Source: Argopecten irradians
Lineage: Eukaryota; Mollusca; Bivalvia; Pectinida; Pectinidae
Assembly (NCBI RefSeq): GCF_041381155.1
Contig: NC_091134.1
Location: forward strand, 11,844,008-11,908,007
DNA length: 64,000 nt
Direction of reading: 5' to 3'
Shown here one piece after another: positions 5,888 to 56,200 of the stretch; the stretch's first letter is position 1, and each line of letters starts with the position of its first letter. A model generated the notes under the pieces. It saw only the letters and a program-made list of their open reading frames with translations, made no database searches and was not told the DNA's origin. The translations under genes were made by a program, and so were the position numbers.

Positions 5888-8800
5888 CTGAAAATAGACA
5901 GATTATGACATGCAATATTATCTCAAACATGTATTTTCCTTCGAGTAAAATACCTGGTATTAAGCATTCATAGCCAATGAAACTCGAATTACATGGATGA
6001 AAATCACGGAGATAATCACATATCATTAAGGTAGGTCCATACTTTTGAAAACCGCGCCAGTTCATATGATGCTAAACCGGAAGCTGCCGAGGTTGTTTTG
6101 AATTCCAGAGTGGTTTCCGATACGCTATGCTACATTCCACTTGGATATTTTTTTCAATAGGTGAAAATTGTTTACATATAATATTGAAAAGCTTAAAATC
6201 TAGCTTTAGGTCAAGTTGAACTTACAATGGAACTTACTTAGGTTGTACGTACACCTATACAAGGGAACGCTTACTTAGGTCTGTAGTTGAAACACCTATA
6301 CAAGGGAACTTACTTAGGTCTGTAAGTTGACACCTATACAAGGGAACTTACTTCGGTCTGTAGTTGACACACTATACAAGGGAACTTACTTAGGGTCTGT
6401 AGTTGACACCTATACACAAGAGATAACTTACTTTGGTCTGTAGTTGACACCTATACAAGGGAACTTACCTATAGAACGTCTGTAGTTGACACCCCTATAC
6501 AAGGGAACTAACTTAGGTCTGTAGTTGGGACTAAACTATACACATGGAACTTACTTAGGTCTGTAGTTGGACACCATACAACAGAACTTACTTAGGGTCT
6601 GTAGTTGACACTATACAAGGGAACTTAACTTAGGTCTGTAGGATTGACCACCTTTTACAAGGGCAGAACTTACTTAGGTCTGTATGTTGACACCTATACA
6701 AGAAGGAACTTACTTAGGTCTGTAGTTGACACCTATACAACAGAACTTACTTAGGTCTGTAGTTGAACACCTATACAAGGGAACTTACTTAGGTCTGTAG
6801 TTGACACCTATACAAGGGAACTTACTTAGGTCTGTAGTTGACACCTATACAATGGAAACTTACTTAGGTCTGTGAGTTGACACCCTATACAATGGAACTT
6901 ACTTAGGTCTGTAGTTGACAGCCTCTATACAAGGGAACTTACTTAGGTCTGTTGACACCTATACAATGGAACTTACTTAGGTCTGTAGTTGACACCTATA
7001 CAATGGAAACTTACTTAGGTCTGTAGTTGACTCACCTATACAAGGTAACTGTACTTAGGTCTGTAGTTGACACGTCTATACAATGGAACTTACTTTACGG
7101 TCTGTAGTTGACACCTATTTTACACGGGAACTTACTTAGGTCCTGTAGTGACACCTATACAATGGAACTTACTTAGGTCTGTAGTTGACACCTATACAAG
7201 GGAACTTACTTAGGTCTGGTAGTTGACACCTATACAAGGGAACTTACTTAGGTCTGTAGTTTGACACCTATACAACAGAACTTACTTAGGTCTGTAGTTG
7301 ACACCTATACAATGGAACTTACTTAGGTCTGTAGTTGACACCATAGGTCTGTAGTTGACACCTATACAAGGGAACTTACTTAGGTCTGTAGTTGACACCT
7401 ATACAAGGGAACTTACTTAGGTCTGTAGTTGACACCTATACAAGGGAACTTACTTAGGTCTATAGTTGACACCTATACAAGGGAACTTACTTAGGTCTGT
7501 AGTTGACACCTATACAATGGAACTTACTTAGGTCTGTAGTTGACACCTATACAAGGGAACTTACTTAGGTCTGTAGTTGACACCTATACAAGGGAACTTA
7601 CTTAGGTCTGTAGTTGACACCTATACAATGGAACTTACTTAGGTCTGTAGTTGACACCTATACAAGGGAACTTACTTAGGTCTGTAGTTGACACCTATAC
7701 AAGGGAACTTACTTAGGTCTGTAGTTGACACCTATACAAGGGAACTTACTTAGGTCTGTAGTTGACACCTATACAATGGAACTTACTTAGGTCTGTAGTT
7801 GACACCTATACAAGGGAACTTACTTAGGTCTGTAGTTGACACCTATACAAGGGAACTTACTTAGGTCTATAGTTGACACCTATACAAGGGAACTTACTTA
7901 GGTCTGTAGTTGACACCTATACAACAGAACTTACTTAGGTCTATAGTTGACACCTATACAAGGGAACTTACTTAGGTCTGTAGTTGACACCTATACAAGG
8001 GAACTTACTTAGGTCTGTAGTTGACACCTATACAAGGGAACTTACTTAGGTCTGTAGTTGACACCTATACAACAGAACTTACTTAGGTCTGTAGTTGACA
8101 CCTATACAAGGGAACTTACTTAGGTCTGTAGTTGACACCTATACAAGGGAACTTACTTAGGTCTGTAGTTGACACCTATACAACAGAACTTACTTAGGTC
8201 TATAGTTGACACCTATACAAGGGAACTTACTTAGGTCTGTAGTTGACACCTATACAACAGAACTTACTTAGGTCTGTAGTTGACACCTATACAAGGGAAC
8301 TTACTTAGGTCTGTAGTTGACACCTATACAAGGGAACTTACTTAGGTCTGTAGTTGACACCTATACAAGGGAACTTACTTAGGTCTGTAGTTGACACCTA
8401 TACAAGGGGAACTTACTTAGGTCTGTAGTTGACACCTATACACAGCGGAACTTACTTAGGTCTGTAGTTGACACCTATACAAGGGAACTTACTTAGGTCT
8501 GTAGTTGACACACCTATACAACAGAACTTACTTAGGTCTGTAGTTGACACCTATACAATGGAACTTACTTAGGTCTGTAGTTGACACCTATACAAGGAAC
8601 TTACTTAGGTCTGTAGTTGACACCTATACAATGGAACTTACTTAGGTCTATAGTTGACACCTATACAATGGAACTTACTTAGGTCTGTAGTTGACACCTA
8701 TACAAGGGAACTTACTTAGGTCTGTAGTTGACACCTATACAAGGGAACTTACTTAGGTCTGTAGTTTGACACCTATACAACAGAACTTACTTAGGTCTGT

Positions 8801-11800
8801 AGTTGACACCTATACAACAGAACTTACTTAGGTCTGTAGTTGACACCTATACAATGGAACTTACTTAGGTCTGTAGTTGACAACCTATACAACAGAACTT
8901 ACTTAGGTCTGTAGTTGACACCTATACAAGGGAACTTACTTAGGTCTGTAGTTGACACCTATACAAGGGAACTTACTTAGGTCTGTAGTTGACAGAACTA
9001 TACAAGGGAACTTACTTAGGTCTGTAGTTGACACCTATACAAGGAACTTACTTAGGGTCTGTAGTTGACACCTATACAAGTTACTTAACTTACTTAGGTC
9101 TGTAGTTGACACCTATACAAGGGAACTTACTTAGGTCTGTAGTTGACACCTATACAAGGGAAACTTACTTAGGTCTCTAGTTGACACCTATACAACAGAA
9201 CTTACTTAGGTCTGTAGTTGACACCTATACAAATGGAACTTACTTAGGTCTGTAGTTGACACCTATACAACAGAACTTATACTTAGGACATCCTTCTGTA
9301 GTTGACACCTATACAACAAGGGAACTTACTTAGGTCTGTAGTTGACACCTATACAACAGAAACTTACTTTAGGTCTGTAGTTGACACCTATACAAGTTGA
9401 GAACTTACTTAGGTCTGTAGTTGACACCTATACAAGGAACTTACTTAGGTCTGTAGTTGACACCTATACAAGGGAACTTACTTAGGTCTGTAGTTGACAC
9501 CTATACTAAGGGAACTTACTTAGGGTCTGTAGTTGACACCTATACAACAGAAACTTACTTAGGTCTGTAGTGTTGACACCTATTACAAGGGAACTTACTT
9601 AGGTCCTATAGTTGAAAAACACCTATACAACAGAACTTACTTAGGTCTGTAGTTGACACCTATACAACAGAACTTACTTAGGTCTGTAGTTGACACCTAT
9701 ACAATGGAACTTACTTAGGTCTGTAGTTGACACCTATACAAGGGAACTTACTTAGGTCTGTAGTTGACACCTATACAACGGAACTTACTTAGGTCTGTAG
9801 TTGACACCTATACAAGGGAACTTACTTAGGTCTGTAGTTTGACAACCTATACAAGGGAACTTACTTAGGTCTGTAGTTGGACACCTATACAAGGAACTTA
9901 CTTAGGTCCTGTAGTTGACACCTATACAAGGAACTACTTAGGTCTGTAGTTGACACCTATACAAGGGAACTTACTTAGGTCTGTAGTTGACACCTATACA
10001 AGGGAACTTACTTAGGTCTGTAGTTGACACCTATACAACAGGAACTTACTTATGGGTCTATAGTTGACACCTAATACAAGGGGAACTTACTTAGGTCTGT
10101 AGTTGACACCTATACAATGGGAACTTACTTAGGTCTGTAGTTGACACCTATACAAGGGAACTTACTTAGGTCTGTAGTTGACACCTATACAAGGGAACTT
10201 ACTTAGGTCTGTAGTTGACACCTATACAACAGAACTTACTTAGGTCTATAGTTGACACCTATACAATGGAACTTACTTAGGTCTGTAGTTGACACCTATA
10301 CAATGGAACTTACTTAGGTCTGTAGTTGACACCTATACAAGGGAACTTACTTAGGTCTGTAGTTGACACCTATACAACAGAACTTACTTAGGTCTGTAGT
10401 TGACACCTATACAAGGGAACTTACTTAGGTCTGTAGTATGACACCTATACAACCAGAACTTACTTAGGTCTGTAGTTTGAACACCTATACAATGGAAACT
10501 TACTTAGGTCTGTAGTTGACACCTATACAAGAGGAACTTACTTAGGTCTGTAGTTGACACCTATACAACAGAACTTACTTAGGTCTGTAGTTGTCTGTAT
10601 GGTTAGACACCTATACAATGGGAACTACTTAGGTCTGTAGTTTGACACCTATACAAAGTGGAACTTACTTAGGTCTGTAGTTGACACCTATACAATGGGA
10701 ACTTACTTAGGTCTGTAGTTGACACCTATACAAGGGAACTTACTTAGGTCTATAGTTGACACCTATACAATGGAACTTACTTAGGTCTGTAGTTGACACC
10801 TATACAACAGAACTTACTTAGGTCTGTAGTTGACACCTATACAAGGGAACTTACTTAGGTCTGTAGTTGACACCTATACAAGGTTAAACTTTACTTAGGT
10901 CTGTAGTTGACAACCTATACAAGGGAACTTACTTAGGTCTGTAGTTGTACGTTGTTGAAACTTACTTAGGTCTGAAGTCATTTACTTAGGGAAAGAAATC
11001 CGAATCCATTATAACAGAATCTACGTAGGCCATGTTGACACTATAGCTAGTGATCCTGTAGTTAAGTCTAGTTAGTCCACACCTATAGCCAGAAAGCCAT
11101 GTAGTTAGTCGTCTGTACCATGTAGTTAGCTATACAACATGTAACTACTTAGGTTATACATGTAGTTAGCTATTAGCCGAGGTAGTTTAGCTAGTTGGGG
11201 CATGTAGTTTAGCTAGTTAGGGCATGTAGTAAAGGAACTAGACATGTAGGTTAGCTATGTAGTTAGCTATTAGACATGTAGAAAGTCCACAATGCAGCCA
11301 TGCATTATCTTACATTCCTGTTATAGAATATTGAAATCACTTTCTAACTTGCAATTTACTTCACACCTAATTCACCCAATTTTTGCAATCGCATAGTATT
11401 TTCGCAAAATAGATTTGATCTCTACGAATTACTATCAACATCTTGTAATATACTTATGGTCTTTACAGTGACACCTATACGAGGGAAACTTACTGAGGTC
11501 TGTAGTTGACTTCAAATGTGAATGGGATTTCCACGGAGATTTTTTGGTGTTTTTAGAACTGGAGCCATTTGTAAAATGTATTTTAAAAGTCTATACATTT
11601 GTTATAGAGTCAGTTTGAATAAATGTAATTTTGTTATACAATGCCAGTTTGATAAAATTATAGATACGTGTATAGATCCAGTTTGTGAAAAGTATTTTAA
11701 AGTTTATATTGTATATAGCCAGTTTGTATAAATTGTAACTTAAAAGTTATTACATTGTATGTTCAGTTTGTAAGTCAAAGTTATACCATTGTATAGACCA

Positions 11801-14800
11801 GTTTGTGAAACTAGTTTTTTAAAGCATACATTTATAGACATGAAATGTATTTAAAAGATACGATTTATTCCAGATTTGTGAAATTGTATTTAAAGTATAC
11901 ATTTGTATAGTGGCAGTTTGTAAAATTGTTAGTTTCAAGTTGTATTGAGGCAGTTTGTGAAATGTATTTTAAAGTTATACATTGTATAGAGCCAGTTTGT
12001 AAAATGTATTTTTTAAAGTTATACATTGTATAGAGTCAGTTTGTGAAAATGTATTTTAAAGTTTTATATACATTGTATAGAGCCAGTTTGTGAAATGTAT
12101 TTTAAAAAGTTATACATTGCATAGAGCCAGTTTGTATAATGTATTTTTAAAGTTATACATTGTATAGAGCCAGTTTGTGAAATGTATTTTAAAGTTATAC
12201 ATTGTATAGAGTCAGTTTGTATAATGTATTTTAAAGTTATACATTGTATAGAGCCAGTTTGTGAAATGTATTTTAAAGTTATACATTGTATAGAGTCAGT
12301 TTGTATAATGTATTTTAAAGTTATACATTGTATAGAGCCAGTTTGTGAAATGTATTTTAAAGTTATACATTGTATAGAGCCAGTTTGTATATTGTATTGT
12401 AAAGTTAAACATTGCATAGAGCCAGTTTGTGAAATATATTTTAAAGATATACATTGTATGTGCTGTAACTGCGCAACAATTTTGACATGTAATTTTAACT
12501 TCAGTTATCTCTTGAAAACCATCAGATTAGATGAATTAAGTTGTGAAAATCGTTCACATTGGGAAACACATATGATGCTGTACAGTCATTTTGCATCAAC
12601 ACATTCATATTTTATGTAATGCAATAGTTTTTATGCTTAATTTATGTTTAGGATGAACACATATCTGAAGAAGTAACTATATAATGTACAAATATCATTG
12701 TAAACATGTAAAATGGAATTGTTGACCACAACTTGTCATCTTGGTTTGACCATGTGTAGTCATTTCACTGCAGTGTGCACTAATATCATCATTTTTGGCA
12801 GAACTGCCAAAATTCATTTTGAAATTTTATCTGACTTTATAAAATTAATGCATTGTATGTATGTAAGTCTCAAAATGATGATTACATTTGGTGGTATATG
12901 AATACATGTATCAAAAGCTCTTCTTGGTTTGTGGGTAAAAAAAATATTGCACATATAACTTAAAGCTTACCTTAAACGATGAGATAAAATTCTTGTTCAA
13001 ATTCAACACTGTACACCTGTTTTGTTTAGAAAGGGAGAAAAAGGAAAAAAAATAATAAAAATATTTCAAAAGAATAAATTCATTTCAGATGAAAAAACTT
13101 AGGATTAAGACTGAGCACTGAGACAAATCCAGACAATTACATTGTATCTTTTGAATTTCATGAGATTTTAATTGTGAAGTCCTAAATGATTATATTCCAA
13201 CAAACTCGACCATTTTAGTGATGAGCTGTAATCTTACTTTGGGAAGCTGTAAGAAGAAAGAGTTGTGATGTTGTTGTCGACGAGGTATAGTTGTTCCATG
13301 CTCTTCAGGTTGCCAAGGATACGAGTTAAAAGTTGTCTTTCTGATAGTTCCTTGGTGATGATTCAAAGTTCAAAAAACAGTTCTGGTAACACATGGCTGG
13401 CTAGACATTGTTTTTTATTATTATTAATGAAAATGGGGGCATGGGGGATCAAAGTGGGTTAAAGGTAATATAACTAATAAAAATAAATAATTCAAAAACA
13501 GGTTCAAAGACTACCTTGGAGCTGCCACCATACAGGATAATTTTTTTATTTCAAACAAGAGGCCGCAAGGGCCTTTTTTTTTATTTTTTATTTTGCCAAA
13601 CGTGGGACCATGATCATTTTAACAAATCGCAAAACTACATTTGCGTGGTACATCAACCCGAAAAATACGATAAAAGTTGCATTTTCCTCAAGTTTCATCT
13701 TGAGAAGATAGTTTGGCGGCTGTGATTGAGAAGAAGTTCAAAATGTGTTTTCAAGATGGCGGCTGTGGCGGCCCGTCTTGCATTTTGGATCGACCCGAAA
13801 AAATTAACAACACTTTGTCGGGACCATGTCAGGATCATATCATGCAAGTTTCAGTCAAATCGCACTGGTAGAACTTGAGAAGAAGTTCAAAATGTGTTTT
13901 CAAGATGGCGGCTGTGGCGGCCATCTTGGATTTCGGATCGACCCGAAAAATAACAACACTTTGTCGGGACCATGTCAGGATCATTTCATGCAAGTTTCAG
14001 CCAAATCGCACCGGTACAACTTGAGAAGAAGTTCAAAATGTGTTTTCAAGATGGCGGCTGTGGCGGCCATCTTGGATTTCGGATCGACCCGAAAAATAAC
14101 AACACTTTTTCAGGACCATGTCAGGATCATTTCATGCAAGTTTCAGTCAAATCGCACTGGTAGAACTTGAGAAGAAGTTCAAAATGTGTTTTCAAGATGG
14201 CGGCTGTGGCGGCCATCTTGGATTTTGGATCGAACCCGAAAAATTAACAACACTTTGTCGGGACCATGTCAGGATCATTTCATGCAAGTTTCAGTCAAAT
14301 CGCACCGTTAGAGAACTTGAGAAGAAGTTCAAAATGTGAAAAGTTAACGCACGGCGCACGGCAGACGGCGCACAGCGGACGTTGACGGACGAACAATGAT
14401 GACTATAGGTCATCCTGGACCCTTTGGGTCAGATGACCTAAAAAAGGGACAAAATTGGATATCAGTTCACAGATACACATAGTGCAAGCATGACACATGG
14501 AAAAACAAGATATGTATAAGTAGCTATTTCATTTCAATTTAAAATGTGGACAAACTGTTAGGGGTTTGCAAGTTCAACTATCCATTTTTTGCCTATCATT
14601 ATTGAATCTATATTAATTTTTTTTCTCCTTTACCATAAGCTATATACTTTTGAACACAGTAATATTCTTTTAAAGAACAGTATTTAATGAAATCGAAAGT
14701 GAAACTGAGAAAGTTATATTCTGATATGAAGTTTATGATTTTTTTGTAATACTAGTATTGCTGAAAGCTCTTCTTAAAACAAATATTGTTCCATAATATA

Positions 14801-17800: not shown

Positions 17801-20800
17801 TTCATATATATAACATATAAGTGTGCATGCTGAATTCTTCCATATTATTTTAGTAGATTCAAAATTTAATATGTAAATATTTGCCCTTCATATTTACCAA
17901 TATTGTCGTTGGCGAGTCATTTATTACATTCAACCTACGTCATCTCGGTAGCTTTCTCATTTTCTAACCAAAAGATTTACATTCATACACAATGTAATTT
18001 CACGTCATCAACTAAATGTTAACAAAATGATATAATACATATCACGATACATTGATCATATTGTATTGCAATTATATATTCTATTACAAAAAAATGTTCA
18101 TGATTATATTACTCATCTGTCTAACACAAAAAAGTATTGAAAAAAAAATATTAAATATTGGACATGCATCAATGAATTTTGTGCTAATCAGCAGTAATTG
18201 CATGAAACAAAGAGCCTGATAGACTCAAGTTAAATATTACCTCAAAGGAATTGATTGTGACACATCAATTATTTTTATAACATCATTTGTTATACAGTAA
18301 CTGCAGTATTTTGTGTTCTTTATCGATGGTGATTTATAATGCTCCATTACCAAATATAATGACACATGATAATTTACTTTCCGTTGTTTCAAAATAAGAG
18401 GTGATTGCTTCCACAAAACTTAACAATCCATAATCCATAAAAAAACACTTCACAATGTATCACAGCAAAACCTTATGCTTCACCCGCCCGATCAGAAGCA
18501 GATAAACGATACTCATCTCTCCGTGAACAATAATTGTTACTTTTTAACTTGCATTGTCAGCGTTTAATCAAAAGCAGCTTATATTTCTTGATACACAAAT
18601 TTCAATTACCTGACGAATATGTTGCAGATGAAACGGTCCATCATACATCACCTGTACATGCAGCCACAAGCATACTAACATTCAAATGTGGGGAAGTTGT
18701 TTTCCATCACTCTGATTAAAATTGTTTACAGAGTTAGCTCCCCTTGCGGGTAGGGTATCACAATTGTTACATCATTATTTTGTGTTTGTGGGATTTACGT
18801 CATTTTCTATCCGAAACTTATGACGTTACCCTCGCAACGGCACATGACGTCATAATCAATACTACCCGCAAGGGCTGATAATACGGTAATATGCAAATAT
18901 AGAATATTAAGATTTGGTCCAAATTTCCTCCCTCTTCTATATCCCCCACTCCTTTCACATTCTTCCTGTGGGCTTGACTTATGTTGTGCTATGGCTATGT
19001 AGACTAGTACTGTTGCTACGACTGGTAGCAAATAAAGACAAATAAAGATAACTGGTTACAAAGCAGAAATATTAGAAACAGTTATTTGCAAGAACTGCTT
19101 CAGAATAAAACTGAAATAACTGGAATTTTGATACAGTGAAAAAATTCCAGTCAGTTTATCTTTATTTTTTTTTCAGCCGTTAAAACAAGGTCTGCCGGAA
19201 AAAAGTGTATTTTTACAGTAAACACATAAATTCACAGTAAACAGTTATTCTTTGCTAAGGGTTATTACCTTGTTAACTTAAATTTTAATGACAATAGTAT
19301 ACATATTATCCTACAACATACACACCTCTGGAAGTTCATTGGTAGGGCCCTGGAACTTCCTCTGTTGCTGTAGATGCTTGTAAGCTCCGCAGGGACACTA
19401 TGGCCAGGGGAGTGACACGGCTGATGATAAACCCGGTGTTACTGCCTGTTTGTCCCCACTAACAGCACTCTCTGCATTGAATGGACACACTACACAACAT
19501 AAATCACCTTGTTACTAATGTTGTAAGAAACCAGAGCATTAAAAAAAATGAAAAAATTAATATGTGTTGGTGATTTTGGGCTTACTAATTAAACATTAAG
19601 TGAATATTTTGGAATTATTATAACTCAAGTGAGAATCCTGCATGCATTCAGAATTAAAATGAAAGGTATTTAGCACTTTCAAATTTCACTGCATAAAGCA
19701 GTTTAGAACAATTGGAGACAGGCATACACGATCATAGCAACCCCCAAACAGGGGAGTGGAAGGAGGCTTGGGAGATGAAGGACAATGGGGGAGGTGATGG
19801 ACAGGGGTGCAGGGGAGGTGCTAAGAGACTGGGGAGGTGAAGGAGGCTTGGGGAGGTGAAGAAGAGAATGGGGGAGGTGAAGGAGGACTTGGGGGAGGTG
19901 AAGGACACTGGGGGGGAGGATGAGGGGGAGGCTGGGAGGGAGGTGAAGGAGGCTGGGGAGGTGAAGGAGGCTGGGGAAGGTGACAGGGAGAGGAGGGGAT
20001 ATGGTGGAAGGACGAAGGGGGCTGGGGGACGTGACCGTGAAGGACGGCTGGGGGAGGTGTTGAGAAGGAGGCTCTGCTTGGGGGAGGTGAAGGACGCTTG
20101 GGAGAGGTGAAGGAGGCTGGGGAGAGGGTGAAAGGAGGTTCTTGGTAACATGATGGGAGAGGTGAAGGAGGCTGGACGGGGGAGTATGAAGGAGGGCTGG
20201 GGGAGGTAAAGGAGGCTGGGGGGAATGTAGAAGGTCGCTTGGTTGATGAGGTAACAAGCTGAAGGGGGAGAGGTGCTAAGGAGGCTGCTGGGGAAGGTTT
20301 AAGGAGGCTGAGGAGAAGGTGAAGGAGGCTGTGGGAAGGTGAAGGAGGTTGGGGAGGTTGAAGGGAGGCTGTGGGGGAGGTGAAGGAGGTTGGGGGAGGT
20401 GAGGAGGGCTTGGGGGAGGTGAAGGACGCTTGGGGAGGTGAAGGAGGCTGTGGGAAAGTGAGGAAGGAGGGATGGAGGCGGTGGGAAAGGTGAAGGAGGT
20501 TGGGGGAGGTGAAGGAGCTCCATGGATGGATGGGGGGAGGTGAAGGATGGCGGGGGGGAGGTGAAGGAGGCTCCCGTTGGGGGAGGTGGTCTGCGGGGAG
20601 TTAAGGAGGACTCCATGGAGGAGATGGGAGGTGGGGGAGGTAAAGGAGAGATCCATGGGGGAGATAAAGGAGGCTGGGGCTGGTGGGGGGGGGCTGTAAA
20701 GGTGGGCTGGGGGAGGTGAAGGAGGCTCCAATTGGGGAGGTGAGGAAGGAGGTGGGGGAAGGTGAAGCTGATTTTTAGTAAAAGGCACAAATACAGTAGA

Positions 20801-23800: not shown

Positions 23801-26800
23801 GTTGAGTTTAATAATTAGTCGAAACATTATAAGTGTAATAAATATAAATGTTTTTATATTAAAAAGTGGAAATAGGCATAACTGTTACTTTTTAGCTCAC
23901 CTGGCCCTTGGTGAGCTTATGTCATGGCACGGCATCGTCTTCTGTCGTCAAAATTTCCTTTAAATTGCTATTGCTCTGACACCCAGCGGGGAAGGAGAGG
24001 GCGGGGCCCAATAGAGGAAATAGAGGTAAATCCTATAAATACACTACTGTGTCCTAGAGTTTTCTACATGGATTGTAACCTAAATTTGGCACACAAATAT
24101 CCATGGGGGACGGGGAACAGAACTTGTATAAATTTTTGACTCTGACCCCCCAGGGGACAGGAGGGGCGGGGCCCAATAGGGGAAATAGACGGTAAAATCC
24201 TATAAATCACTACTTTGTCATACAGTTCTGCATGGATTGTGACCAAATTTGGCCACAAACACCATATGGGGCAAAGAAGGAACAGAACTTGTATAAAGTT
24301 TGGCTCTGACCCCTGGGGGCAGGGTAGGGGCGGGGCCCTGAGGGCCCAATAGGGCAACATAGAGGTAAATCCTAATAATATCGCTAACTTGTCTCATAGT
24401 TCTGCTGGGATTGTAACCAAATTTGGCACACAAGACTTCATCCTTGGGAGAAGGGGATCAGAAACTTGTATAAATTTTGGCTTTGACACCCCGGGGCAGG
24501 AGGGGCGGGGAACCAATAGGGGAAATAGAGGTTAAATCCTATAAATCGCTACTTGTCCTAGAGTTCTGCATGGATTGTGACCAATTTGGCCACAAACATC
24601 CATGGGGAAGGGGAACAGAACTTGTGTATAAGTTTGGCTCTGACCCCGGGGGCAGGGGAGGGCGGGGCCCAATTGGGGAAAATATAGGTAAATACTATTA
24701 AATCGCTACTTCGTAGGGTCTACTGCATATGGTTTGTAACCAAAATTTGGCCCCACACAAACATCGTTTGGGGAAGGAGGAACAGAAACTTGTATAAAGT
24801 TTGGCTTTTTTTTTTCTGACACCCGGGGGCAGGATCGAGGAGCTAGGGCCCAAAAGTGAAAATAGAAGTAAATCCTACTTTCCTACTGGAGTTCTGCATG
24901 GATTGTAACCAAATTTGGACCACAAACATCGTTTGGGGAAAGGGAACAGAACATTAGTGTACTAAAGTTTGGCTATGACACCCCGGGGGAGCAGGGGGGC
25001 GGGGGGGAGCCCCAATAGGGAAATAAGAGGTAAATATTCGAATTTACTTCAGAAAAGAAACAATGAAACTGTATTTAGAACATTACTTGGCATTACATAC
25101 CAGGTGACCGATACAGGCACTCTGGGCCTCTTGTTTAAGTTAAAGACTAAAAATTTTAAACAATCAAACCGGAGTGAAAGGTTATCAGCTCGGATTAGTT
25201 GAGATTTTGTCCTACCTTTGCTGATCAATCAAATTCCGGTCAAAAGTAAAATGGGATTTTAAGTTAGTTATAGTTATATCATTAAACTTAATCTAGTTTA
25301 CAGTAGCTCTTAACAAAATAAAATATAAAGCAATCATTTATAACTGTACTTTGATTGTGATTGCCTTTTATCATCAGGTAATACCTGAACCAGTCAACAA
25401 GTGGAAGGATGTGGATGGCTTCAATACACTGGTGAGAATATCGTAAACTGAGATATTTTAACGTCGGAAAATTTAGTGTTTTTATTAGGTCACCTGAGAC
25501 GAAGTCTCAAATGACCTATTCTAATCGCCTTTTGTTGTCATGCGTCGTGTGTCAGTAAACAATTTACATTTCCAACTTCTCCAAAACTGCTGAAGCAAAT
25601 TCAATGAAATTTTGCACAAACCTTCTAAGGCATAAGGCCAATCAAAATTGTGAATTATATAGCCCCCACCCCCCAAGGGGCTATGGGAGGGGCCAAAAGG
25701 GCTAAAATTTCAAAAATCTTCTCCACTCGCAGATGTGGTAGAATCAAATAGTCTTCATAGATTGAAAGGTCCCAATTAAATAAGGCCTTCTACAAAAATT
25801 TTGAATTTCATAGCCTGGGGGTCTCAGATTTTTTCCCTGGGGAGGGGTCAAATTTACTATAGTTTATATAGAGAAAAAAACCAAATTCATGAGCATTATT
25901 TGCTCAATTTTCATAGGAAATGAGTCAAACTTGGTTAGAGTTATTGGCCTAAGATAGCAGTTTAACATTAAATCCATCTAGGTCCTAGCTGACCCCCAGG
26001 AACCAGTGGGGCGGGGCCATAAATTCAAATGAATTCAAAGATATGATGGAACCAAATACTCTCTATATTTTAAAAGGTCTCAAGGCCCTCTTCAATATTT
26101 GTGGCTCTGTGGTCTCAGGGATGCTGATCAATTTGATAAAAATTTTGAAAGATTGTCGCTGGGCCAACTGTGTGGTCAATTTTGGTGTGTTAATCTTTGG
26201 CACTTTCATGGCAAACACCAAATAAACCAAATTAGTACATCACGTGAAAGAATACAGGATTCTGATTGGCTACACACAGGCGGGCACTATTGAAGTGGTG
26301 CGATATTGTAATTTGTAATTTCTATGTAGGATCTGATGTTTAACCATTTGTAATTTCTATGTAGGATCTGATGTTTAATCATTTGTAATTTCTACGTAGG
26401 ATCTGATGTTTAATTTCATTTGTAATTTCTATGTAGGATCTGATGTTTAATCATTTGTAATTTCTATGTAGGATCTGATGTTTAATCATTTGTAATTTCT
26501 ATGTAGGATCTGATGTTTAATCATTTGTAATTTCTATGTAGGATCTGATGTTTAATCATTTGTAATTTCTATGTAGGATCTGATGTTTAATCATTTGTAA
26601 TTTCTATGTAGGATCTGATGTTTAATCATTTGTAATTTCTATGTAGGATCTGATGTTTAATCATTTGTAATTTCTATGTAGGATCTGATGTTTAATCATT
26701 TGTAATTTCTATGTAGGATCTGATGTTTAATCATTTGTAATTTCTATGTAGGATCTGATGTTTAACCATTTGTAATTTCTATGTAGGATCTGATGTTTAA

Positions 26801-29003
26801 TCATTTGTAATTTCTATGTAGGATCTGATGTTTAATCATTTGTAATTTCTATGTAGGATCTGATGTTCAATCATTTGTAATTTCTATGTAGGATCTGATG
26901 TTTAACCATTTGTAATTTCTATGTAGGATCTGATGTATAAAGATGCTTCCCGCTGGAGCCTGGCATTCCAGTCCTATGTACAACTCACAATGGCAGAGGG
27001 ACATAAAAAAAAATAAGGTCTGTTTCAAATATATCCGTACTGTTTATATCTGTATATCTCTGTCTGGGATCCATCAATTTAGGGGTTTGCTCTTAAATCC
27101 TTTTCACTGTTTAAATTTGATAAGCTATCCCAGATTAGATACTCAGCTCACTTCGAGTCTTTAGTATGAATTATATACACAACATATCAAAGAAACACAA
27201 TTTTAACAAAGCATGACAATTTATTGACTCGTGCCCTATCCGTTTTTAGCCAAACATAGCTGCGCCTTCTACCACTGCGCAACATCCACTGTAGGCGCAG
27301 GTATGTTTGGCTAGGCGATTGGGTGCCGTAGATCGTGATTTCGAGGCCCGGATAGGGCACGAGTCAATAAATTGTCATGCTTTGTTAAATTGTGTTTCTT
27401 TGGTATTTTACATTATATATATACATGTAGACTAACAGGAAAAAAACTTCTATGGTAGGTGATCACCCCCATTAGAATTACATTCCCATTGCATGATTGT
27501 ATAAGGTAATTAGATTGGGGACCTTTTGTTTTCTGTCCTTCCTTAAACCGTATTTTTTCTAATGGAATTTTCGTAAATGGTGGGGGGGTGGAGGGTGTGG
27601 GAAGCATTTCATAGAACACATTTTTGAACTCAAAAGTTTGTCAGATAAACCATATCAAATACACGTATACGGCCATCGGTGTTGTAAGTTCAGGGGTTTC
27701 TTTATCTTTCAGGAGAGGCGGTACAAATTGCAATTTCAGGGGGTACTTTTCTATACCATCTGTATGCAGCTATCTAATGTAATTTAGCCTAATATTGGCC
27801 TGATGTTGAAACCCCTGAAGTTCATTTTTGAAACATTGTGAAACAAATCAAAAGATTTCTTGGTCTGGATGTTTGAAAATGCATTCACATTTCATAACTC
27901 ACCCGCCGGTAGTATGTGATCGGAAGAGAGGTTAAGAGAGTCAAAATTGAATTCATGTAAACTGGCAATTCACCATAAGACGTGATTTGCTTCTGTTGTT
28001 ATGGATAAATCAAAATTAACTAGTCAGCCTGCAGTTGCTTTGTAAGTGTATGAAAATAGCGGCAGGTTATGAAGTCTTACAATCACTGTGCCTAAACTGT
28101 TTTTGAGAATTACACTAGTATTATGTGGATACGGCAAATTATCTTTATAATAGTGAAAATTAATGTAAACATCAACTGCATTGAAACACTTTGGTAGGTA
28201 CTATGTTTGTAGCTTTTAAATTTATTCATTGTGTTTCTTAATTTTCTTTAGAACAAAAGTGTCAAGATGATGGAAAGGTCACTGTTCAGTGCGAGAAACT
28301 GCTTTGTTGAAAATCTCTACAAAGGGTATTTAATTTTTTGGTTTTCTCCTTGCTCATGTTACTTTGAAATAAGTTTGAAAGTAAACTCAAAACTCAGAAT
28401 CTACACAAAATGTCTCTTGTTTCTGCAGGTAATTGTTGACAATGTTTATACATAAGATTCTATAATTTAAATTTCAGTTTAATTCGTTCTGTCTGTTAAA
28501 TCTGTAATTTATTTGTCTATATAATTTTGACTGTTAAGGCTCTTTCTTGGGCTGATAAAGAATGAGTGTAACATTTAAGATTTGATCTGTAGTGGTCTGA
28601 TGCCAGAGGTCGACTACGCCATCCTGTCAGAGTTTTATGGCTGGATAACGGAGAACGAGGACACAAATATAGATTTGATTGGTATGTGAAGTGTTCAATA
28701 TTGTGTCACATAATCAGCCTGATATGCAGTGACTTTGCCATGTAATGTTTTTCAATTTAGGTCATCTGACCTATATAAATAGCCATCGTGCTTCATCCGC
28801 TGTTGTACACATCAGTAACATTTCATTCATTCAGACAACTTCTTCTGAATAACCGATTGTACCGTGGTACCCATATTGGGCCTGTAGCATGGTTGAATGA
28901 AGTGCTTCCAAGTTTGTTCAAATGAATGACCTTGACTTTAAGGGACTAATAACTTTGAATCATTTCATAGGGTCTTTATAATTTCCTCTTGATGAGACAA
29001 TTA

Positions 29004-29040
<37 letters not shown>

Positions 29041-35645: not shown

Positions 35646-35649
35646 TCTT

Positions 35650-43415: not shown

Positions 43416-43439
43416 TTAGGCTCATTGAGGGATATTATA

Positions 43440-44440
43440 GAGAGAAAAATGGGTGAGGGGTTATTTAATATCATACAGAAAACTGGGTGAGGGGGTTATC
43501 ATACAGAAAACTGGGTGAGGGGGTATTCATACAGAAAAATGGTTGAGGGGGTTATTATATGTAGTAAATGAGTGAGGGGGTTATTATACAGAAAAACTGG
43601 GTGAGGGGGTTATTATACAGAAAAATGGGTGAGGGGTTATTATACAGAAAAATGGGTGAGGGGTTATTATACAGAAAAATGGGTGAGGGGTTATTATACA
43701 GAAAACTGGGTGAGGGGGTTATTATATGTAGTAAATGAGTGAGGGGGTTATTATACAGAAAACTGGGTGAGGGGGTTATCATACGGAAAACTGGGTGAGG
43801 GGGTTATTATATGTAGTAAATGAGTGAGGGGGTTATTATACAGAAAACTGGGTGAGGGGGTTATCATACGGAAAACTGGGTGAGGGGGTTATTATATGTA
43901 GTAAATGAGTGAGGGGGTTATTATACAGAAAACTGGGTGAGGGGGTTATTATATGTTAGTAAATGAGTGAGGGGGTTATTATACAGAAAACTGGGTGAGG
44001 GGGTTATTATACAGAAAACTGGGTGAGGGGGTTTATTATATGTAGTAAATGAGTGAGGGGGTTATTATACAGGAAATCTGGGGAAGAGGTTATTATACAG
44101 GAAAAATGGACGAGGGTTTTTATTATACAGAAAAACTGGGTGAGGGGGTTATCATACAGAAAAAATGGTTGAGGGGGGTTATACAGAAAAAATGGTTGAG
44201 GGGGTTATTATACAGAAAATTGAGGAAGAGGTTATTATACAGAAAAAACTGGGTGAGGATTTATTATACAGAAAAAAAAAATGGGTGAGGGGGTTATTAT
44301 ATACAGAAAATCGGGAAAGAGGTTATTATACAGAAAAACTGGGTGAGGGGGTTATTATACAGAAAAATGGGGAGGGGGTTATTATACAAAAAAATTGAGA
44401 GTAGTGGGTTTTATTTACAGAAAATTGAGGATTGGTTAGG
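43440..44440. repeat. Tandem array, 28-bp G-rich unit, about 35 copies
   Basis: Unit GGGTGAGGGGGTTATTATAC then AGAAAACT. A second variant (TATGTAGTAAATGAGTGAG) alternates regularly between 43555 and 44070, giving a higher-order pattern. The edges decay. Each unit has GGG and GGGGG runs on the plus strand, enough for quadruplexes across adjacent units. Open frames on both strands are repeat-driven. Confidence 0.93.
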
Positions 44441-45850
44441 TGGGTTTTTGAGGAGAGGTTAGGAGAGATTTTGGCTGGTCTGAACCTGAGGCTTGCCGAA
44501 GGTTGACAGCCAAAATCTTTTCAGGAGGGTTGAGATATCCCTGTCCACATGACAGACTAATGTTAGATTCTTTTTCTCTCATACTTTACCGAAACATGAT
44601 GAAAATACAATTATAGAGAAACATTTCCAAAGCGCCAAAGCATTCATAGGAATGTCGCAATGCATCATGTAATGATGACATCAATTCATTGCCTAGCACG
44701 TGTGAGTTGTCCTTTCCCTACCCCGGTAACAGACAGAGTTATCTTTTCCCTAGCAACCGCAGGATAACCCTATCAAGTATGGGAGAAAAAAATGGAAATA
44801 TACCTCCACATGAAAATATGTGTACCATTGTGATGCCTGTTTGCATACAATTAAAAAACAAAAGCTGATATATGTCTACAGAGGAGACACAGTCACAGAT
44901 TGCGCACCAAATCAGGACTCAAAATTGTACCAATGGTGAGCCCCAATAGTCTGAGGGATGCCGCCAAAACTTTCCTAATTCGATTTGTAAGAGTTTTTTG
45001 TGAAAATTTCTTACATAAACCATGTGGGCCTGTTGTTAAACAAATGTACATATAATGCTTCAAATAAATATGTCTGTATTATTCTAGACTACTGATATAT
45101 AAAAGTTTTTTTGTATTTAATACCCTTTAATACCTATAATGGTATGTTTATTTCTCAAGAAAACTGTGATTTGATTCAGAAGGCCAAAACGTTATATTGT
45201 TGGAAAAGGTCTAGTGGTTGTAACTGATACCTATCCAGAGATTTTTGCTTATCCCAACTTTAACGGGTTACGCAGAGGAAAAAGCTTATATGATAGATTA
45301 AAGATAAGTTATGGATGAAACATAGCATTCTAGGAGAGGTCAAGCAAATTGATATACCTAGGTTTGCACAACAATTACCAGCATGTTTGTAAGTTCAATG
45401 AATCTTGTTGACAAATAACTAATTCATTGTCAAGCCAACAAAATCGAACAAATTTACAAAAATTGAAATCTTTTTATATGTGAAGGTAAAGATATAGATA
45501 AAGAATAGTCGCAAAAAATGAATCCTAGTACATTAGGAGAGTCAAGCAATACATGTTATATGGATAGATTACCAGCTATGTAAAACATATCAATCAACAT
45601 ATATCCCAAAGCGAGTTATAACCATGAAAACATTCCTCCTCTATGTAAAATATTCGACTGTAATGATCCACAGTATTCATGTATATCTCACTGTAAGGTA
45701 CAATAACATTAGAACATATCATCCTCTGTTGTCTCTTTAAATAGTATAGACATAAACAGTATGAGTCTGCAAGTCCAACCTGTTGCCAACTATGTAACAT
45801 GTCAAGTATGAACCCTGTTGATCCTTAAAAATGTATGCACATTGTATGAA
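44441..45850. other. Gene-free; hairpin at 44470-44520
   Basis: GAGATTTTGGCTG and CAGCCAAAATCTTT face each other about 30 bp apart and form a stem. The remainder is AT-rich without supported features. Confidence 0.45.
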
Positions 45851-45854
45851 CAGT

Positions 45855-47140
45855 GTAGAAATGTCCTCACAGAATGAACTGAAGCTGACTTAGGATGTGC
45901 ACAGTATGAATTATTAAATAGTGTCCACAGTATGAACCTGAAGTGTCCACAGTATGAACCCCTGAAAGTGTCCTGCAGTATGAATCTTAAATGTACAGTA
46001 TGAACCTGAAGTGTCCACAGTATGAACCCTGAAAATATTCACAGTATGAATCCTGAAGTGTCCACAGTATGACGGCCCTGAAAGTGTCTGCAACAGTATG
46101 AAATCATGAGAATGTCCTACAAGTATGAACCCTGAAATGTCCAAGTATTTGAACCCTGAGATAACACAGTGTGACACCTGAATGAACCACAATATGAACC
46201 CTGAAATGTCCAAAGTATGAACCCTGAGATGTCCACAGTATGAACCCTGAAAAGTCCACAGTATGAACCCTGAAGTGTTCCACATGTATGAACCCTGAAA
46301 ATGTCCCAGTATGAACCCTGAAATGTTCCACTGTATGAACCTGACGTGTCACCCAGTAAGAAACTCCTGAAATGTCCACTGTATGAACCCTGAAATGTCA
46401 ACAATGAAATGTCATACCTGAACCCTGAAATGTCCACAGTATGAACCCTGATGTCCACACGTATGAATCCTGAAATGTCCACAGTATGAACCCTGAAATG
46501 TCCACAGTATGAACCCTGAAATGTCCACAGTATGAACCCTGAAATGTCCACAGTATGAACCCTGAAATGTCCACAGTATGAACCCTGAAATGTCCACAGT
46601 ATGAACCCTGAAATGTCCACAGTATGAACCCTGAAATGTCCACAGTATGAACCCTGAAATGTCCACAGTATGAACCCTGAAATGTCCACAGTATGAACCC
46701 TGAAATGTCCACAGTATGAACACTGAAATGTCCACAGTATGAACCCTGAAATGTCCACAGTATGAACCCTGGAAATGTCCACAGTATGAACACTGAAATG
46801 TCCACAGTATGAACCCCTGACATGTCCACAGTATGAACCCTGAAATGTCCACAGTATGAACCCTGAAATGTCCACAGTATGAACCCTGAAATGTCCACAG
46901 TATGAACCCTGAGATGTCCACAGTATGAATCTGAAATGTCAACAGTATGAACTCCCTGAGTTGACCAAGTATGAACCCTTAAATGTCCACAGTATGAACC
47001 CTGAAATGTCCACAGTATGAACCCTGAAATGTCCACAGTATGAACACTGAAGTGTCCACAGTATGAATCTGAAGTGTCCACAGTATGAACCCCGACATGT
47101 CCACAGTATGAACCCTGAAATGTCCACAGTATGAACCCTG
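45855..47140. repeat. Tandem array, 23-bp unit, about 55 copies
   Basis: Unit AGTATGAACCCTGAAATGTC then CAC. Very regular at 46490-46920, ragged at 45850-46420. No stop codon occurs in any of the three minus frames of the consensus, so long overlapping open frames (up to about 250 residues) cross it on minus. The repeated translation (ILWTFQGSYCGHFRVHTVDIS-like, 23 residues per three units) looks like no known protein, and I regard it as non-genic. Confidence 0.93.
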
Positions 47141-47615
47141 AAATATTCTCTAAACTGTCATTGATTTCTCACCTTCAGAGCAGGATGATAAAGGTTCGAT
47201 GGACCTGTGACTTGTCTAGACATCACTGATACGAGTTCCATATCATCTTGCATGAAATGAGGTCAAACCATCAGGCATAGCTGTCAAACCAAGTCATCAG
47301 TTTGATGATACCATGTAGTATGTTGCATCATTGTATGAAATAGGTCTTCCTTTTCATAATGACTCCATTTATTTCATCAGCAGATTTACTGATATATGAG
47401 AATATTCTGCTGGACAATTAAAGTGGTATTGTGCTGACTAAAACTGACTGATTGATCAAGGGACCTAACCACTACAAGGAATTGGACAAGTGTCTTGGGA
47501 GGGAAAAATAATACAGCAATCAGGCGGAAAAAGTGTTGGATGTATCATACTCAACCTTGTTAAATAAGGTACTCCCCAATCTGAACATCAATATTTTTCA
47601 TGTCTCTGCTATATA
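47141..47615. other. Gene-free, nothing recognised
   Basis: AT-rich sequence between the 23-bp array and the palindromic element. No feature supported. Confidence 0.4.
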
Positions 47616-47617
47616 TA

Positions 47618-48371: not shown

Positions 48372-48600
48372 GACCAGGTAGCTCAGTCGGTAGAGCACTT
48401 GGCTAGTGTTTGGAGGGTCCCGGGTTCGAATCCCGGTCTGGCCGCTACATTTTCTCCTCTCCTGTTACAAAATTGGTGCCCAACTAAATAACCCATGGTG
48501 GTGGTGTTTGAAAGGGTCTCGAGACTGTCTTATGTGACTTTCCAAGTGACTGATACATATAAGTCACATAAGACAGGGAGTCACTTAAGTCCAAGTTCAT
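48372..48600 (+). mobile_element. tRNA-derived SINE (tRNA-Thr-like head)
   Basis: 48372-48444 resembles a tRNA: acceptor GACCAGG, A box TAGCTCAGTCGG, T arm with perfect B box GGTTCGAATCC. The anticodon loop CTAGTGT would read AGT (Thr), but the anticodon stem CTTGG/TTGGA has only wobbles and one mismatch, and the acceptor has an A-C mismatch. A non-tRNA tail follows (TCTCCTCTCCTGTTACAAAA...) with an inverted pair GTCTTATGTGAC / GTCACATAAGAC. Best read as a SINE, not a working tRNA gene. Confidence 0.7.
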
Positions 48601-48613
48601 CCGCAACATCACT

Positions 48614-50142: not shown

Positions 50143-50276
50143 ATCTTTTCTGGTTGTGACTGACAAGATGAGTAGCTTTGGACAGAAACTGCTGCGAAGG
50201 AAGTTTGTGGACTTATCTTCTGTAACAAATACCAAGTTAGCTCGATGTCTGACAACTCTAGATCTAACTGCGCTAG
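50143..50276 (+). CDS. Transporter exon with start codon
   Basis: Acceptor TTATCATTATAG, short 5' leader, ATG at 50168. Encodes [20 protein letters not shown] then [16 protein letters not shown] and one base. QKLLRRK and RCLxTLDLxALG match the CAT N-terminus, which fixes the start. Donor CTAG|GTTAGT. The 3' end of this exon and its donor recur three more times downstream. Confidence 0.88.
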
Positions 50277-53200
50277 GTTAGTACTTTTAGGAAGTGAGAG
50301 ATGATTTTATAACATGTTAATACCAAGTGATCTCGATGTCTGACAACTCTAGATCTAACTGGGCTAGGTTAGTACTTTTAGAAAGTGAGAGATGATTTTA
50401 TAACATGTTAATACCAAGTGATCTCGATGTCTGACAACTCTAGATCTAACTGGGCTAGGTTAGTACTTTTAGAAAGTGAGAGATGATTGTATAACATGTT
50501 GTCTGACTTAACTCTTGATCTGACAGCTAGCGCTAGGTTTGTACTTTTAGAAGGTGAGAGATATCTACATGTAGTTTTATCAGTTAGGAGTCTGTCTTAA
50601 CAATGTTTTATAGCATTTTAATTTCCGAAAAGGAGTAAGTTAAAGATACTCCACCGCCTACAAATGGTATTTTTTCACTATCAAAATTAGGAGAAGACGA
50701 TTTACCAGTAGTATTTTTCTTCAGTTACAAAAGTTACCTACTTTACACCATTACCAACATTGAAAAGTATGAGCTTCTAATTTTACTTCAAGTTAAAAAT
50801 ATGAAAAATAATTAATTGCATCCCAAAAAAATTCCGTGGCACTATATCCTACATGGAATGAAGTACTGATTGTGCATGCACCAAAGGCAAAATGAATTAT
50901 TTTATATTACTTTTTGTGTTAATTAGACATATATATATATACAATAATACACCAATTATTGTTCAAATTATGAATAGCATCTATGCTAATTCGGCAATGG
51001 AGCATCTTTAAGGTGGAGTAACTTACTTTTAGATTCTTTTCATTCTGTTACTATTCACAGAAATCATATACCGTATTAATATTTAAGATAATATTTAAGT
51101 ATTGATTTGTGAAAACCATCTGAATAAAATGTTATCCATTGCTATTTGTAAATACCGCTACCGACAGTAAAGTATGAAGTATTGGAGAAAAAAACTTTCC
51201 TTGAATTCTGTTATGTTTCTGATATAAATTTAATGCTAATAGAATTAATGTGACAATTCAGTTTACATGTTTACAATGTGGGTGAGCAGGGAGATCTAGC
51301 TCTGTACATAGATGTATTTGAAGGCCCATTAGGATGCAGCTTCAAGGTGCACATTGAGAATTAACACATAATCTTTAAATTTGCACATCCTTCTGAAATC
51401 TCAATTTTTATCAACCCACTTAATGACCTTGACTTTCATTCAAGGTCACAGGAGTCAAATAGGCTAAAATCTTTAAACAATATAGCTTCTTCGAATTCCT
51501 AATAACAAAGTTAATTAACTCCTCCTAAACTTTGGCACAGTTTCAAGTATGCTGGGGACCATGTGTAGATGTGCAAGAAGGCTTTAATGTAAATGTTGGT
51601 GGATATAGTAACCAGGTTTTTATCCAGAATTTTGTAAAATGGCCATTTGTCTTTAGATCACTTGTGTTAAAATATGGTCAAGCTTTTATGGATACTACCT
51701 AACCGTTACTATTTCACATATCACATGATTTAAGAACAGTTAATATGGAAACATATTGGAGGTTTTAGATTGGTCAAAATTTTGACATTGTTTGATAAAG
51801 CTGTATATTGCTATGAAGGGGTTTGTATGACAAATACAATGGTTGCAGTTTCCAAAACATCAGATGTCATTTGGTTGCCATGGTCACCAAATAAAACGTC
51901 AAAATAAACAAAATTTCTGCATGGGTCACAGTGAGCATATATCAGTCTTATATAATAAAAAAAACCATATTATTTGATCACCATGGATTCAATTGAAATT
52001 TTTTCTATCTTATTCATCTAGTGATGAGGGAATGATTCTCAAATATGTTTAAAGGATTAACATGTCTGACAGTCATCTTGGATTTATGTTGTTTTTAGGT
52101 ATTGGCAGTACCTTAGGGGCTGGTATATATGTTGTTGCTGGGCAGGTTGCTAAGGAAAAGGCTGGACCTGCAGTGACCATTTCATTTCTGATCGCAGCAC
52201 TAGCATCTGTTCTAGCAGGTAATGTAAATCAACAAGTAATGTAGAATTACACAACAGGTAATGTAGAATTACACAACAGGTAATGTAGAATTACACAACA
52301 GGTAATGTAGAATTACACAACAGGTAATGTAGAATTACACAACAGGTAATGTAGAATTACACAACAAGTAATGTAGAATTACACAACAGGTACTGTAGAA
52401 TTACAAAACAGGTAATGTAGAATTACACAACAGGTAATGTAGAATTACACAACAGGTAATGTAGAATTACACAACAGGTAATGTAGAATTACACAACAAG
52501 TAATGTAGAATTACACAACAAGTAATGTAGAATTACACAACAGGTAATGTAGAAATTACACAACAGGTAATGGAATTACACAACAGGTAATGTAGAATTA
52601 CACAACAGGTAATGTAGAATTACACAAAGGTAATGTAGAATTACACAACAGGTAATGTAGAATTACACAACAGGTAATGTAGAATTACACAACAGGTAAT
52701 GTAGAATTACACAACAGGTAATGTAGAATTACACAACAGGTAATGTAGAATTACACAACAGGTAATGTAGAATTACACAACAGGTAATGTAGAATTACAC
52801 AACAGGTAATGTAGAATTACACAACAGGTAATGTAGAATTACACAACAGGTAATGTAGAATTAAGAATTACACAACAGGTAATGTAGAATTACACAACAG
52901 GTAATGTAGAATTACACAACAGGTAAATGTAGAATTACACAACAAGTAATGTAGAATTACACAACAGGTAATGTAGAATTACACAACAGGTAATGTAGAA
53001 TTACACAACAGCAAATGTAGAATTACCACAACAAGTAATGTAGAATTACACAACAATGTAGAATTACACAACAGGTAATGTAGAATTACACAACAGGTAA
53101 TGTAGAATTACACAACAGGTAATGTAGAATTACAAAACAGGTAATGTAGAATTACACAACAGGTTACATGTAGAATTACACAACAGGTAATGTAGAAATA

Positions 53201-56200
53201 CAAAACAGGTAATGTAGAATTACACAACAGGTAATGTAGAATTACACAACAAGTAATGTAGAATTACACAACAGGTAATGTAGAATTACACAACAGGTAA
53301 TGTAGAATTACACAACAGGTAATGTAGAATTACACAACAGTAATGTAGAATTACACAACAGGACATGTAGAATTACACAACAGGTAATGTAGAATTACAC
53401 AACAGGTAATGTAGAATTACACAACAGGTAATGTAGAATTACACAACAGGTAATGTAGAATTACACAACAGGTAATGTAGAATTACACAACAGGTAATGT
53501 AGAATTACACAACAGGTAATGTAGAATTACACAACAGGTAATGTAGAATTACAAAACAGGTAATGTAGAATTACACAACAGGTAATGTAGAATTACAAAA
53601 CAGGTAATGTAGAATTACACAACAGGTAATGTAGAATTACACAACAGGTAATGTAGAATTACACAACAGGTAATGTAGAATTACACAACAGGTAATGTAG
53701 AATTACACAACAGGTAATGTAGAATTACACAACAGGTAATGTAGAATTACACAACAGGTAATGTAGAATTACACAACAGGTAATGTAGAATTACACAACA
53801 GGTAATGTAGAATTACACAACAGGTAATGTAGAATTACACAACAGGTAATGTAGAATTACACAACAGGTAATAATGTAGAATTACACAACAGGTAATGTA
53901 GAATTACACAACAGGTAATGTAGAATTACACAACAGGTAATGTAGAATTACACAACAGGTAATGTAGAATTACACAACAGGTAATGTAGAATTACACAAC
54001 AGGAAATGTAGAATTACACAACAGTAGAATTACACTACAAAACAGGTAATGTAGAATTAACTCAACTCGGACATGTAGAATTACACAACAGGTAATGTAG
54101 AATGAATACACAACAGGTAATGTAAAAATACAAACAGGTAATGTAGAATTTACACTTACAGGTAATTGTAGAATTAACACATACAGGTAATGTAGAATTA
54201 CAGGTAATGTAGAAATACAAAAAACATGTAGAATTACACAACAGGTAATGTAGAATTACACAACAGGTAATGTAGGAGATTACAACAACAGGTAATGTAA
54301 AAATACACAACAGGTAATGTAGAATTACAAAACAGGTAATGTAACTACACAACAAGTACTAATGTAGAATTACAACAACAGGTAATGTAGAAATTACACA
54401 ACAGGTAATGTAGATTTACACAACAGGTAATGTAGAAATACAAAACAGGTAATGTAGAATTACACAACAGGTAATGTAGAATTACACAACAAGTAATGTA
54501 GAATTACACAACAGGTAATGTAGAATTACACAACAGGTAATGTAGAATTTACACAACAGGTAATGTAGAAATACAAACAGGTAATGTAGAATTACACAAC
54601 AGGTAATGTAGAATTACACAACAAGTAATGTAGAATTACACATCAGGTTATGTAGAATTACACAAAAGCAAATGTAGAATTACACAACTGGTAATGTAGA
54701 ATTACACAACAGGTAATGTAGAATTACACAACAGGTAATGTAGAAATACAAAACATGTAATGTAGAATTACACAACAGGTAATGTAGAATTACACAACAG
54801 GTAATGTAGAATTACACAACAGGTAATGTAAAAATTACAAAAACAGGTAATGTAGAATTACACAACAGGTACTAAATGTAGAATTACACAACAGGTAATG
54901 TAGAATTACACAACAGGTAATGTAGAATTACACAAACAGGTAATGTAGAATTACACAACAGGTAATGTAGAATTACACAACAGGTAATGTAGAATTACAC
55001 AACAAGTAATGTAGAATTAGCACAACAGGTAATGTAGAATTACACAACAGGTAATGTAGAATTACACAACAGGTAATGTAGAATTACACAACAGGTAATG
55101 TAGAATTACACAACAGGTATGTAGAATTACACAACAAGTAATGTAGAATTACACATCAGGTTATGTAGAATTACACAAAAGCAAATGTAGAATTAACACA
55201 ACTGGTAATGTAGAATTACACACAACAAGTAATGTAGAATTACATAAGTATTATGATTAGAATAATTTAGATAATACTATAGAAATAGATAATCAATAAA
55301 TAAAACAGTGTAACTTATGTGTAAGAATTATAAAATGTTGTCACCATTGTTGACACAGTCAACAAACAAACCAGTTTATATACATTCAACTATAATGTGA
55401 TATATGTGTCGTGGGTCAGGTAAGTAATATCAACAGTTATTTTATTGGTAATGTATGTGTCCCTATACATATTTTTACCATGATAATACTAGAGGACAAT
55501 TCATCAATTAAAAATACTAATGACAAATAATTTCATTAAAGATAGACCAATACAATGGCATAGCCATAACTTTGATGCTTATATACAGCAGTTTCGTTTT
55601 CGTATTAAAATTGATATAAAATTGTTGCTTTCAGGGTTGTGTTATGCAGAGTTTGGTGCTCGTGTACCTAAAACTGGTTCTGCGTATGTGTACAGTTATG
55701 TTACTGTGGGAGAGTTTATAGCTTTCATCATTGGCTGGAACCTTATTCTGGAATATGTCATAGGTAAGCGGGTGTGCTCGATTCATAATTATGGTTGTCC
55801 CTTAAATTCACTGAATCTCTTTGTGATAAAGGATTTTTAGTGCGAGTGTACTCGCATTATTATTTTGCTTGTCGGGTGTAGAGTCTGTGTACATCTGCTA
55901 TGCGCAGATTCCAACTGCGCACGCGGTGCCGGAAGACAGTGTCTTATACCGACTTTAATAGATTTCGCCATGATTTAGTGACACGAAACTTTCAAAAACA
56001 TATATTAAGATATACTTGTCAGCGATAATATACTATAAATTAACAACAGTGACATTATACAGTGCTAACTGCATTTGTTTTGTGTTTTTGATTCACTTTT
56101 TCTATGGGATGTTTCGATTACATGAAGTTTTGTAATTTTCAGTTCATTTACCCTGTGAATAACGTAGGCCTTTGTTGCAATTGGCATCTGACAATATGAA

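Follow-up and report, generated by a model that had tools for sequence, protein, structure and literature searches.

Four of the 11 tandem arrays in the window (the whole stretch of 64,000 nucleotides analysed here) are composed of units that copy a splice junction of the adjoining exon, as was found for the arrays of 37, 35, 91 and 22 bp, affecting three donors and one acceptor in three genes. We regard it as very probable that these arrays are junction-spanning minisatellites of the type called 'mirages' in amphioxus, born by local tandem duplication. The claim of the original prediction that arrays in this region are founded on splice junctions was largely upheld; the four junction-copying units compare with an expectation of 0.29 under random placement.

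Gene models and inventory of tandem arrays

The window has a eukaryotic look, with spliced genes, and three gene models comprising 22 exons and 42 junctions (the duplicated transporter exon C4 counted as two) were placed in it. Exons B1, B4, A2-A3, C1-C3, and C5-C7 were based on database matches, and the remaining, putative exons were placed from splice signals, open reading frames, and characteristic protein motifs. The modelled genes and exons are as follows.

5764-13350, minus strand: LRR gene, with exons A2 (13238-13350), A3 (12971-13016), A4 (11494-11558), and A5 (5764-5887), the model being partial at its 5' end
26927-33397, plus strand: deoxynucleoside kinase gene, with exons 26927-27017, 28252-28325, 28593-28681, 29792-29871, 31175-31255, and 33314-33397
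50143-50276, plus strand: transporter exon C1, from a database match
52099-52218, plus strand: transporter exon C2, from a database match
55635-63494, plus strand: transporter exons C3-C11, without a junction-spanning array; C4 duplicated

For the LRR gene, the best PDB match was LRRC23, followed by other LRR proteins, and the Pfam LRR hits were under the cut-off. The deoxynucleoside kinase was recognized by a PDB match (E 1e-5) and by Pfam dNK above the cut-off, and its exons starting at 28252, 28593, 31175, and 33314 were placed by protein motifs and are presumed on that basis. A Pfam search for its 5' exons over the plus strand at 14.9-19.7 and 20.85-26.0 kb returned zero matches. The plus-strand transporter gene matched high-affinity cationic amino acid transporter 1 in PDB (E 1.1e-51) and Pfam AA_permease_2, identifying it as a cationic amino-acid transporter; an initial Pfam search across 50-64 kb, covering two of the three plus-strand frames and including the arrays, gave no transporter match.

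The expected frame is interrupted by stops or frame breaks in exons A4, B1, C4, and C7, suggesting either that the genes are damaged or that the assembly is unpolished. When A4 is read in the frame of its neighbouring exons, a stop appears at the second codon, and a frame break is suspected there. Weak acceptors were recorded for A2 (0.1 bits) and B3 (3.4 bits). In addition, exon C4 occurs twice in tandem (56393-57471) at an offset of 584 bp, with the exon copies alike at 153 of 159 aligned positions and the introns after them at 293 of 384, which looks as if the assembly had placed two haplotypes one after the other, or as if the exon were truly duplicated.

For the placement test, 46 TRF rows were merged by hand into 11 arrays, with rows of about two copies and a homopolymer excluded, including a 147-149 bp pair at 30437-30913 and a 142-bp pair at 63578-63885. 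Six of the 11 arrays (65, 146, 20, 28, and 23 bp, and a short 22-bp array) lie away from any modelled junction. Among them, the 28- and 23-bp arrays were screened for units resembling splice sites. The unit of the 28-bp array (43433-44430), upstream of the transporter, includes an acceptor-like site (7.9 bits); the array has no known exon beside it, possibly lying at an unseen 5' non-coding exon. The 23-bp array (45658-47144) contains long minus-strand open frames with no known exon near, and the 20-bp array (19751-20572) is G-rich, with strong G/C skew, long antisense open frames, and no known junction near. A dispersed repeat of 142-146 bp with AAGATGG and TCATCTGACCC motifs was also seen by eye, in tandem copies at 13726-14338 and 63578-63885. 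A dispersed-repeat pattern taken from the window matched nothing in viral contigs, and the style of the dispersed repeats suggests that the host is probably a bivalve mollusc. Moreover, a tRNA-like sequence with an unreadable anticodon lies at 48372-48445, possibly forming the start of a SINE.

Arrays at the exon edges

The arrays next to modelled junctions, together with the features flanking exon A4, are as follows.

6223-10947, minus strand: 37-bp array, its unit copying the donor junction of exon A4
10948-11457, minus strand: stretch of about 510 bp separating the TRF array end from the founder copy, in which only two clear partial copies occur, 10959-10978 and 11034-11087
11458-11510, minus strand: founder copy of the 37-bp unit, comprising the last 17 nt of A4, its donor, and intron
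11494-11558, minus strand: exon A4, with a suspected frame break
11565-12459, minus strand: 42-bp array, cleaner at the far end and degenerate toward the A4 acceptor, its unit without an acceptor copy
26311-26940, plus strand: 35-bp array, its units containing the acceptor TTTCTATGTAG and 10 nt from the start of exon B1
50228-50562, plus strand: 91-bp array, with three clean units and one degenerate unit, starting inside exon C1
52219-55244, plus strand: 22-bp array, starting at the first intron nucleotide after exon C2 (donor at 52218), with the unit CAACAG/GTAATGTAGAATTACA

TRF itself called these arrays at 6223-10947 (37 bp), 11870-12459 (42 bp), 26311-26940 (35 bp), 50228-50500 (91 bp), and 52230-55244 (22 bp). 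In all four junction-copying arrays, the unit copies sit on the intron side of their own exon and the unit consensus reproduces the adjoining exon's own letters, with an exonic share of 3 nt (22 bp), 10 nt (35 bp), 17 nt (37 bp), or 49 nt (91 bp) in addition to intron. In the 35-bp array, the acceptor is followed by the initial 10 exonic nucleotides in 18 of 18 full units, and the last unit enters the exon at 26927. The first unit of the 91-bp array consists of the last 49 nt of C1 (donor at 50276) and 42 nt of intron including the donor. The 22-bp unit shares only CAG (3 nt) with exon C2, and its exonic content is weakly supported.

On the minus strand, the best match of the 37-bp unit outside its array, in the whole window, was the real A4 donor (11458-11510, score 37; next best, 23), and the unit includes this donor together with the last 17 exonic nucleotides, 16 of them matching. 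On the other side of A4, the near edge of the 42-bp array by TRF is 311 nt from the acceptor, with degenerate copies reaching 11565, about 7 nt off; its unit, read in gene sense, has no AG and does not carry the A4 acceptor. A single exon of 65 nt is thus flanked by an array on both sides.

The original prediction had each array starting at an exon edge; the 37-bp array was instead seeded at 11494, and position 6224 is its far end. A copy of the junction is carried clearly by the units of the 35-, 37-, and 91-bp arrays, whereas the exonic part of the 22-bp unit is weak. The 42-bp array, which had been described as ending exactly at a junction, approaches it through its degenerate copies but has a distant TRF edge and no acceptor.

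Units vary within arrays. Decay is stepwise in the 42-bp array and in the 37-bp array, where it affects both ends. The array edges next to the exon are clean in the 22-, 35-, and 91-bp arrays, and only in the 42-bp array are the exon-proximal units the worst. Furthermore, the units of seven arrays proved unrelated, as none of the 21 pairs exceeded the maximum of 60 shuffles.

Placement tests and decoy splice sites

The chance tests were post hoc, on one window picked for the pattern. Under random placement, a TRF edge overlapping a junction was found for 2 of 11 arrays (expected 0.34, P 0.042), an edge within 12 nt for 3 of 11 (expected 0.42, P 0.0075), and an edge within 50 nt also for 3 of 11 (mean 0.60, P 0.0175). 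When the founder unit was scored instead, by dropping one unit per array, it spanned a junction in 4 of 11 arrays (P 1e-4), and the P value was 0.002 with the 22-bp case left out (at least three arrays); with placement confined to the spans of the genes (6 or 5 arrays), it was 1e-4 or 2.5e-5. These results support enrichment at junctions, short of proof. The earlier argument that random placement is unlikely is supported by the founder-unit test, and is weaker by the strict TRF edges.

In a separate scan, copies of each junction's own edge were sought within 1.5 kb for all 42 junctions, with 600 controls drawn away from arrays. Seven junctions scored high, of which five lie at arrays and two are the sides of the C4 duplication that face each other, and the other 35 scored at most 14, against a control median of 12. 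The score of the C1 donor was reached by 0 of 600 controls, that of the B1 acceptor by 1.2%, that of the A4 donor by 4.3%, and those of the A4 acceptor and the C2 donor by 9.2%, the long control tail being due to the commonness of dispersed repeats.

Splice sites were scored with position matrices from the window's own junctions (17 donors and 20 acceptors, both small sets). Over the four arrays, 245 sites equalled or exceeded the score of the real one, with 121 in the 37-bp, 106 in the 22-bp, 16 in the 35-bp, and 2 in the 91-bp array, and the density of strong sites was 7 to 35 per kb in arrays compared with 0.5 to 4.2 per kb in the array-free background. Most strong sites of the 37-bp array (111 of 121) scored 9.3, compared with 6.4 for the real A4 donor. 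Past the real donor, the first in-frame stop occupies intron nucleotides 3-5 (C1), 24-26 (C2), and 2-4 (A4, where the frame is uncertain), and the full-strength repeated copies start at intron nucleotides 91, 39, and 528, respectively. The decoy acceptors of B1 are followed by a stop ahead of the exon in 17 of 17 cases. Because a stop lies between the real site and the full-strength repeats, among the repeated copies only the exon-proximal one can yield protein, and this site is probably the one spliced. An unrepeated strong site of 7.2 bits also lies 5 nt past the C2 donor, ahead of the stop.

Splice-core columns, compared with other columns, were more variable in the 22-bp array (134 of 138 units retained) and less variable in the 37-bp array (116 of 139 retained), units with more than six edits being excluded. 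Given these opposite trends, no claim is made for conservation or purging of the decoy cores.

Origin of the arrays and comparison with known systems

A founding event by replication slippage or unequal exchange would duplicate a segment over the junction, and the usual minisatellite turnover would then account for growth. The exon-proximal copy would retain the splice site and the coding frame while extra copies fall in the intron, which is why duplications of this kind would survive; the spliceosome would have to pick the exon-proximal site and pass over the other copies, and any leak would lead to an early stop codon. As the units are unrelated and each is local, the arrays are accounted for by separate local duplications that then grew as minisatellites do. 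Tolerance alone predicts fewer junction hits than the founder-unit test shows, and slippage or unequal exchange combined with selection tolerating the copies remains the best account. R-loops, which had been offered as a cause, lack general support, as most of the 37-bp array shows almost no G/C skew, although the skew is positive (about 0.13-0.14) over the 22-bp array.

That dense minisatellites merely landed at a few junctions, with the coincidences picked out afterwards, is unlikely. Such a reading draws on the six of 11 arrays in 64 kb that are off modelled junctions, on the strict edge tests with P values of only 0.0075 to 0.042, and on the 35 of 42 junctions that show nothing in the own-edge scan, but it is opposed by the founder-unit result, with or without the 22-bp case, by the 10-49 exonic nucleotides in three of the units, and by a matching pattern published for several amphioxus genes. 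It is very unlikely that the decoys have a selected function in regulating splicing, for example as a U1 snRNP sink or as alternative donors, a role that repeat units reportedly play in IFI6; the predominance of sites stronger than the real donor in the 37-bp array would fit such a function, whereas the position of the full-strength repeated copies beyond an in-frame stop and the inconsistent conservation of the splice-core columns argue against it.

An assembly or sequencing artefact, by false tandem expansion or the joining of two haplotypes, would be in keeping with the broken frames of A4, B1, C4, and C7 and the haplotype-like doubling of C4. It is nevertheless highly improbable, as units differ within arrays, two arrays decay stepwise, the pattern recurs at four separate loci, and the PGBD5 mirages of amphioxus are reported to have held up on re-sequencing (PMC3902484). 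Least credible of all is a mobile agent or targeted process inserting arrays at AG/GT, which had also been put forward and would be compatible with three donors and one acceptor being affected; we dismiss it as extremely improbable, due to the lack of relatedness among the units of the seven arrays compared and the origin of each of the four arrays from its own exon edge.

Beyond local duplication and tolerance, it is conceivable, though doubtful, that junctions are general birth hot spots of minisatellites in animals beyond lancelets, providing a sizeable share of the intronic arrays here. If so, some property of the junction would be responsible, such as pausing, nascent-RNA contact, or donor-like motif pairs seeding slippage, and spliceosomes would cope with more than 100 stronger decoys near a real donor. 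Were junction-seeded arrays common, they would offer natural tests of splice-site choice, in which the real donor stands beside rows of others that match or surpass it in strength and only the proximal one can give protein. They would also be relevant to intron lengthening and to the gain of introns by duplication.

The original prediction held that no described process produces such arrays, which is contradicted by the junction-spanning minisatellites published as 'mirages' at both intron boundaries in amphioxus. In two papers (PMC3087553, PMC3902484), they are described from Adh3, the globins BflGb6 and BflGb9, TnC, and PGBD5 (with PGBD5 added and TnC cited in PMC3902484) as minisatellite-like tandem duplications over the intron-exon boundary, 5' and 3', with units of 10 to 160 bp and with AG/GT signals in many of them, splicing being reportedly undisturbed; the globin and PGBD5 mirages have 2-7 copies (PMC3087553, PMC3902484). 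Similarly, the unit here spans the boundary with exonic and intronic letters, clearly in the 35-, 37-, and 91-bp arrays and by 3 nt in the 22-bp array, whereas the 42-bp unit does not span it. Splice signals are likewise kept in many units, and both donor and acceptor boundaries are hit. The escape of cluster edges from homogenisation, a trait described for mirages, gives a mixed picture: the 42-bp array shows it, as does the 37-bp array at either end, but it is absent on the exon side of the 22-, 35-, and 91-bp arrays.

Other described systems share parts of the pattern. The human IFI6 (6-16) minisatellite also offers splice donors from a tandem repeat, with two downstream units serving as donors (PMC4526556, citing Turri et al. 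1995), but its units are reportedly used and give protein isoforms, whereas the full-strength copies here lie beyond an in-frame stop. Intron gain in ATP2A1, in potato RdRp, and with fission-yeast 24-bp AGGT repeats (PMC4974935) likewise involves local tandem duplication of a segment bearing splice signals; in those cases, a new intron was reportedly made, whereas the copies here sit in an existing intron.

A literature search located no bivalve or mollusc case in titles among the matches listed, most subscription papers being outside its scope. The arrays very probably represent a further, dense set of mirages, likely from another phylum, in a host that is probably not a chordate. What is new is the host, which is probably molluscan, and the copy number, which is far above that of the globin and PGBD5 examples; one array reaches 4.7 kb. 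The window thus contributes four cases to the mirage type, two of them far longer than those amphioxus examples.
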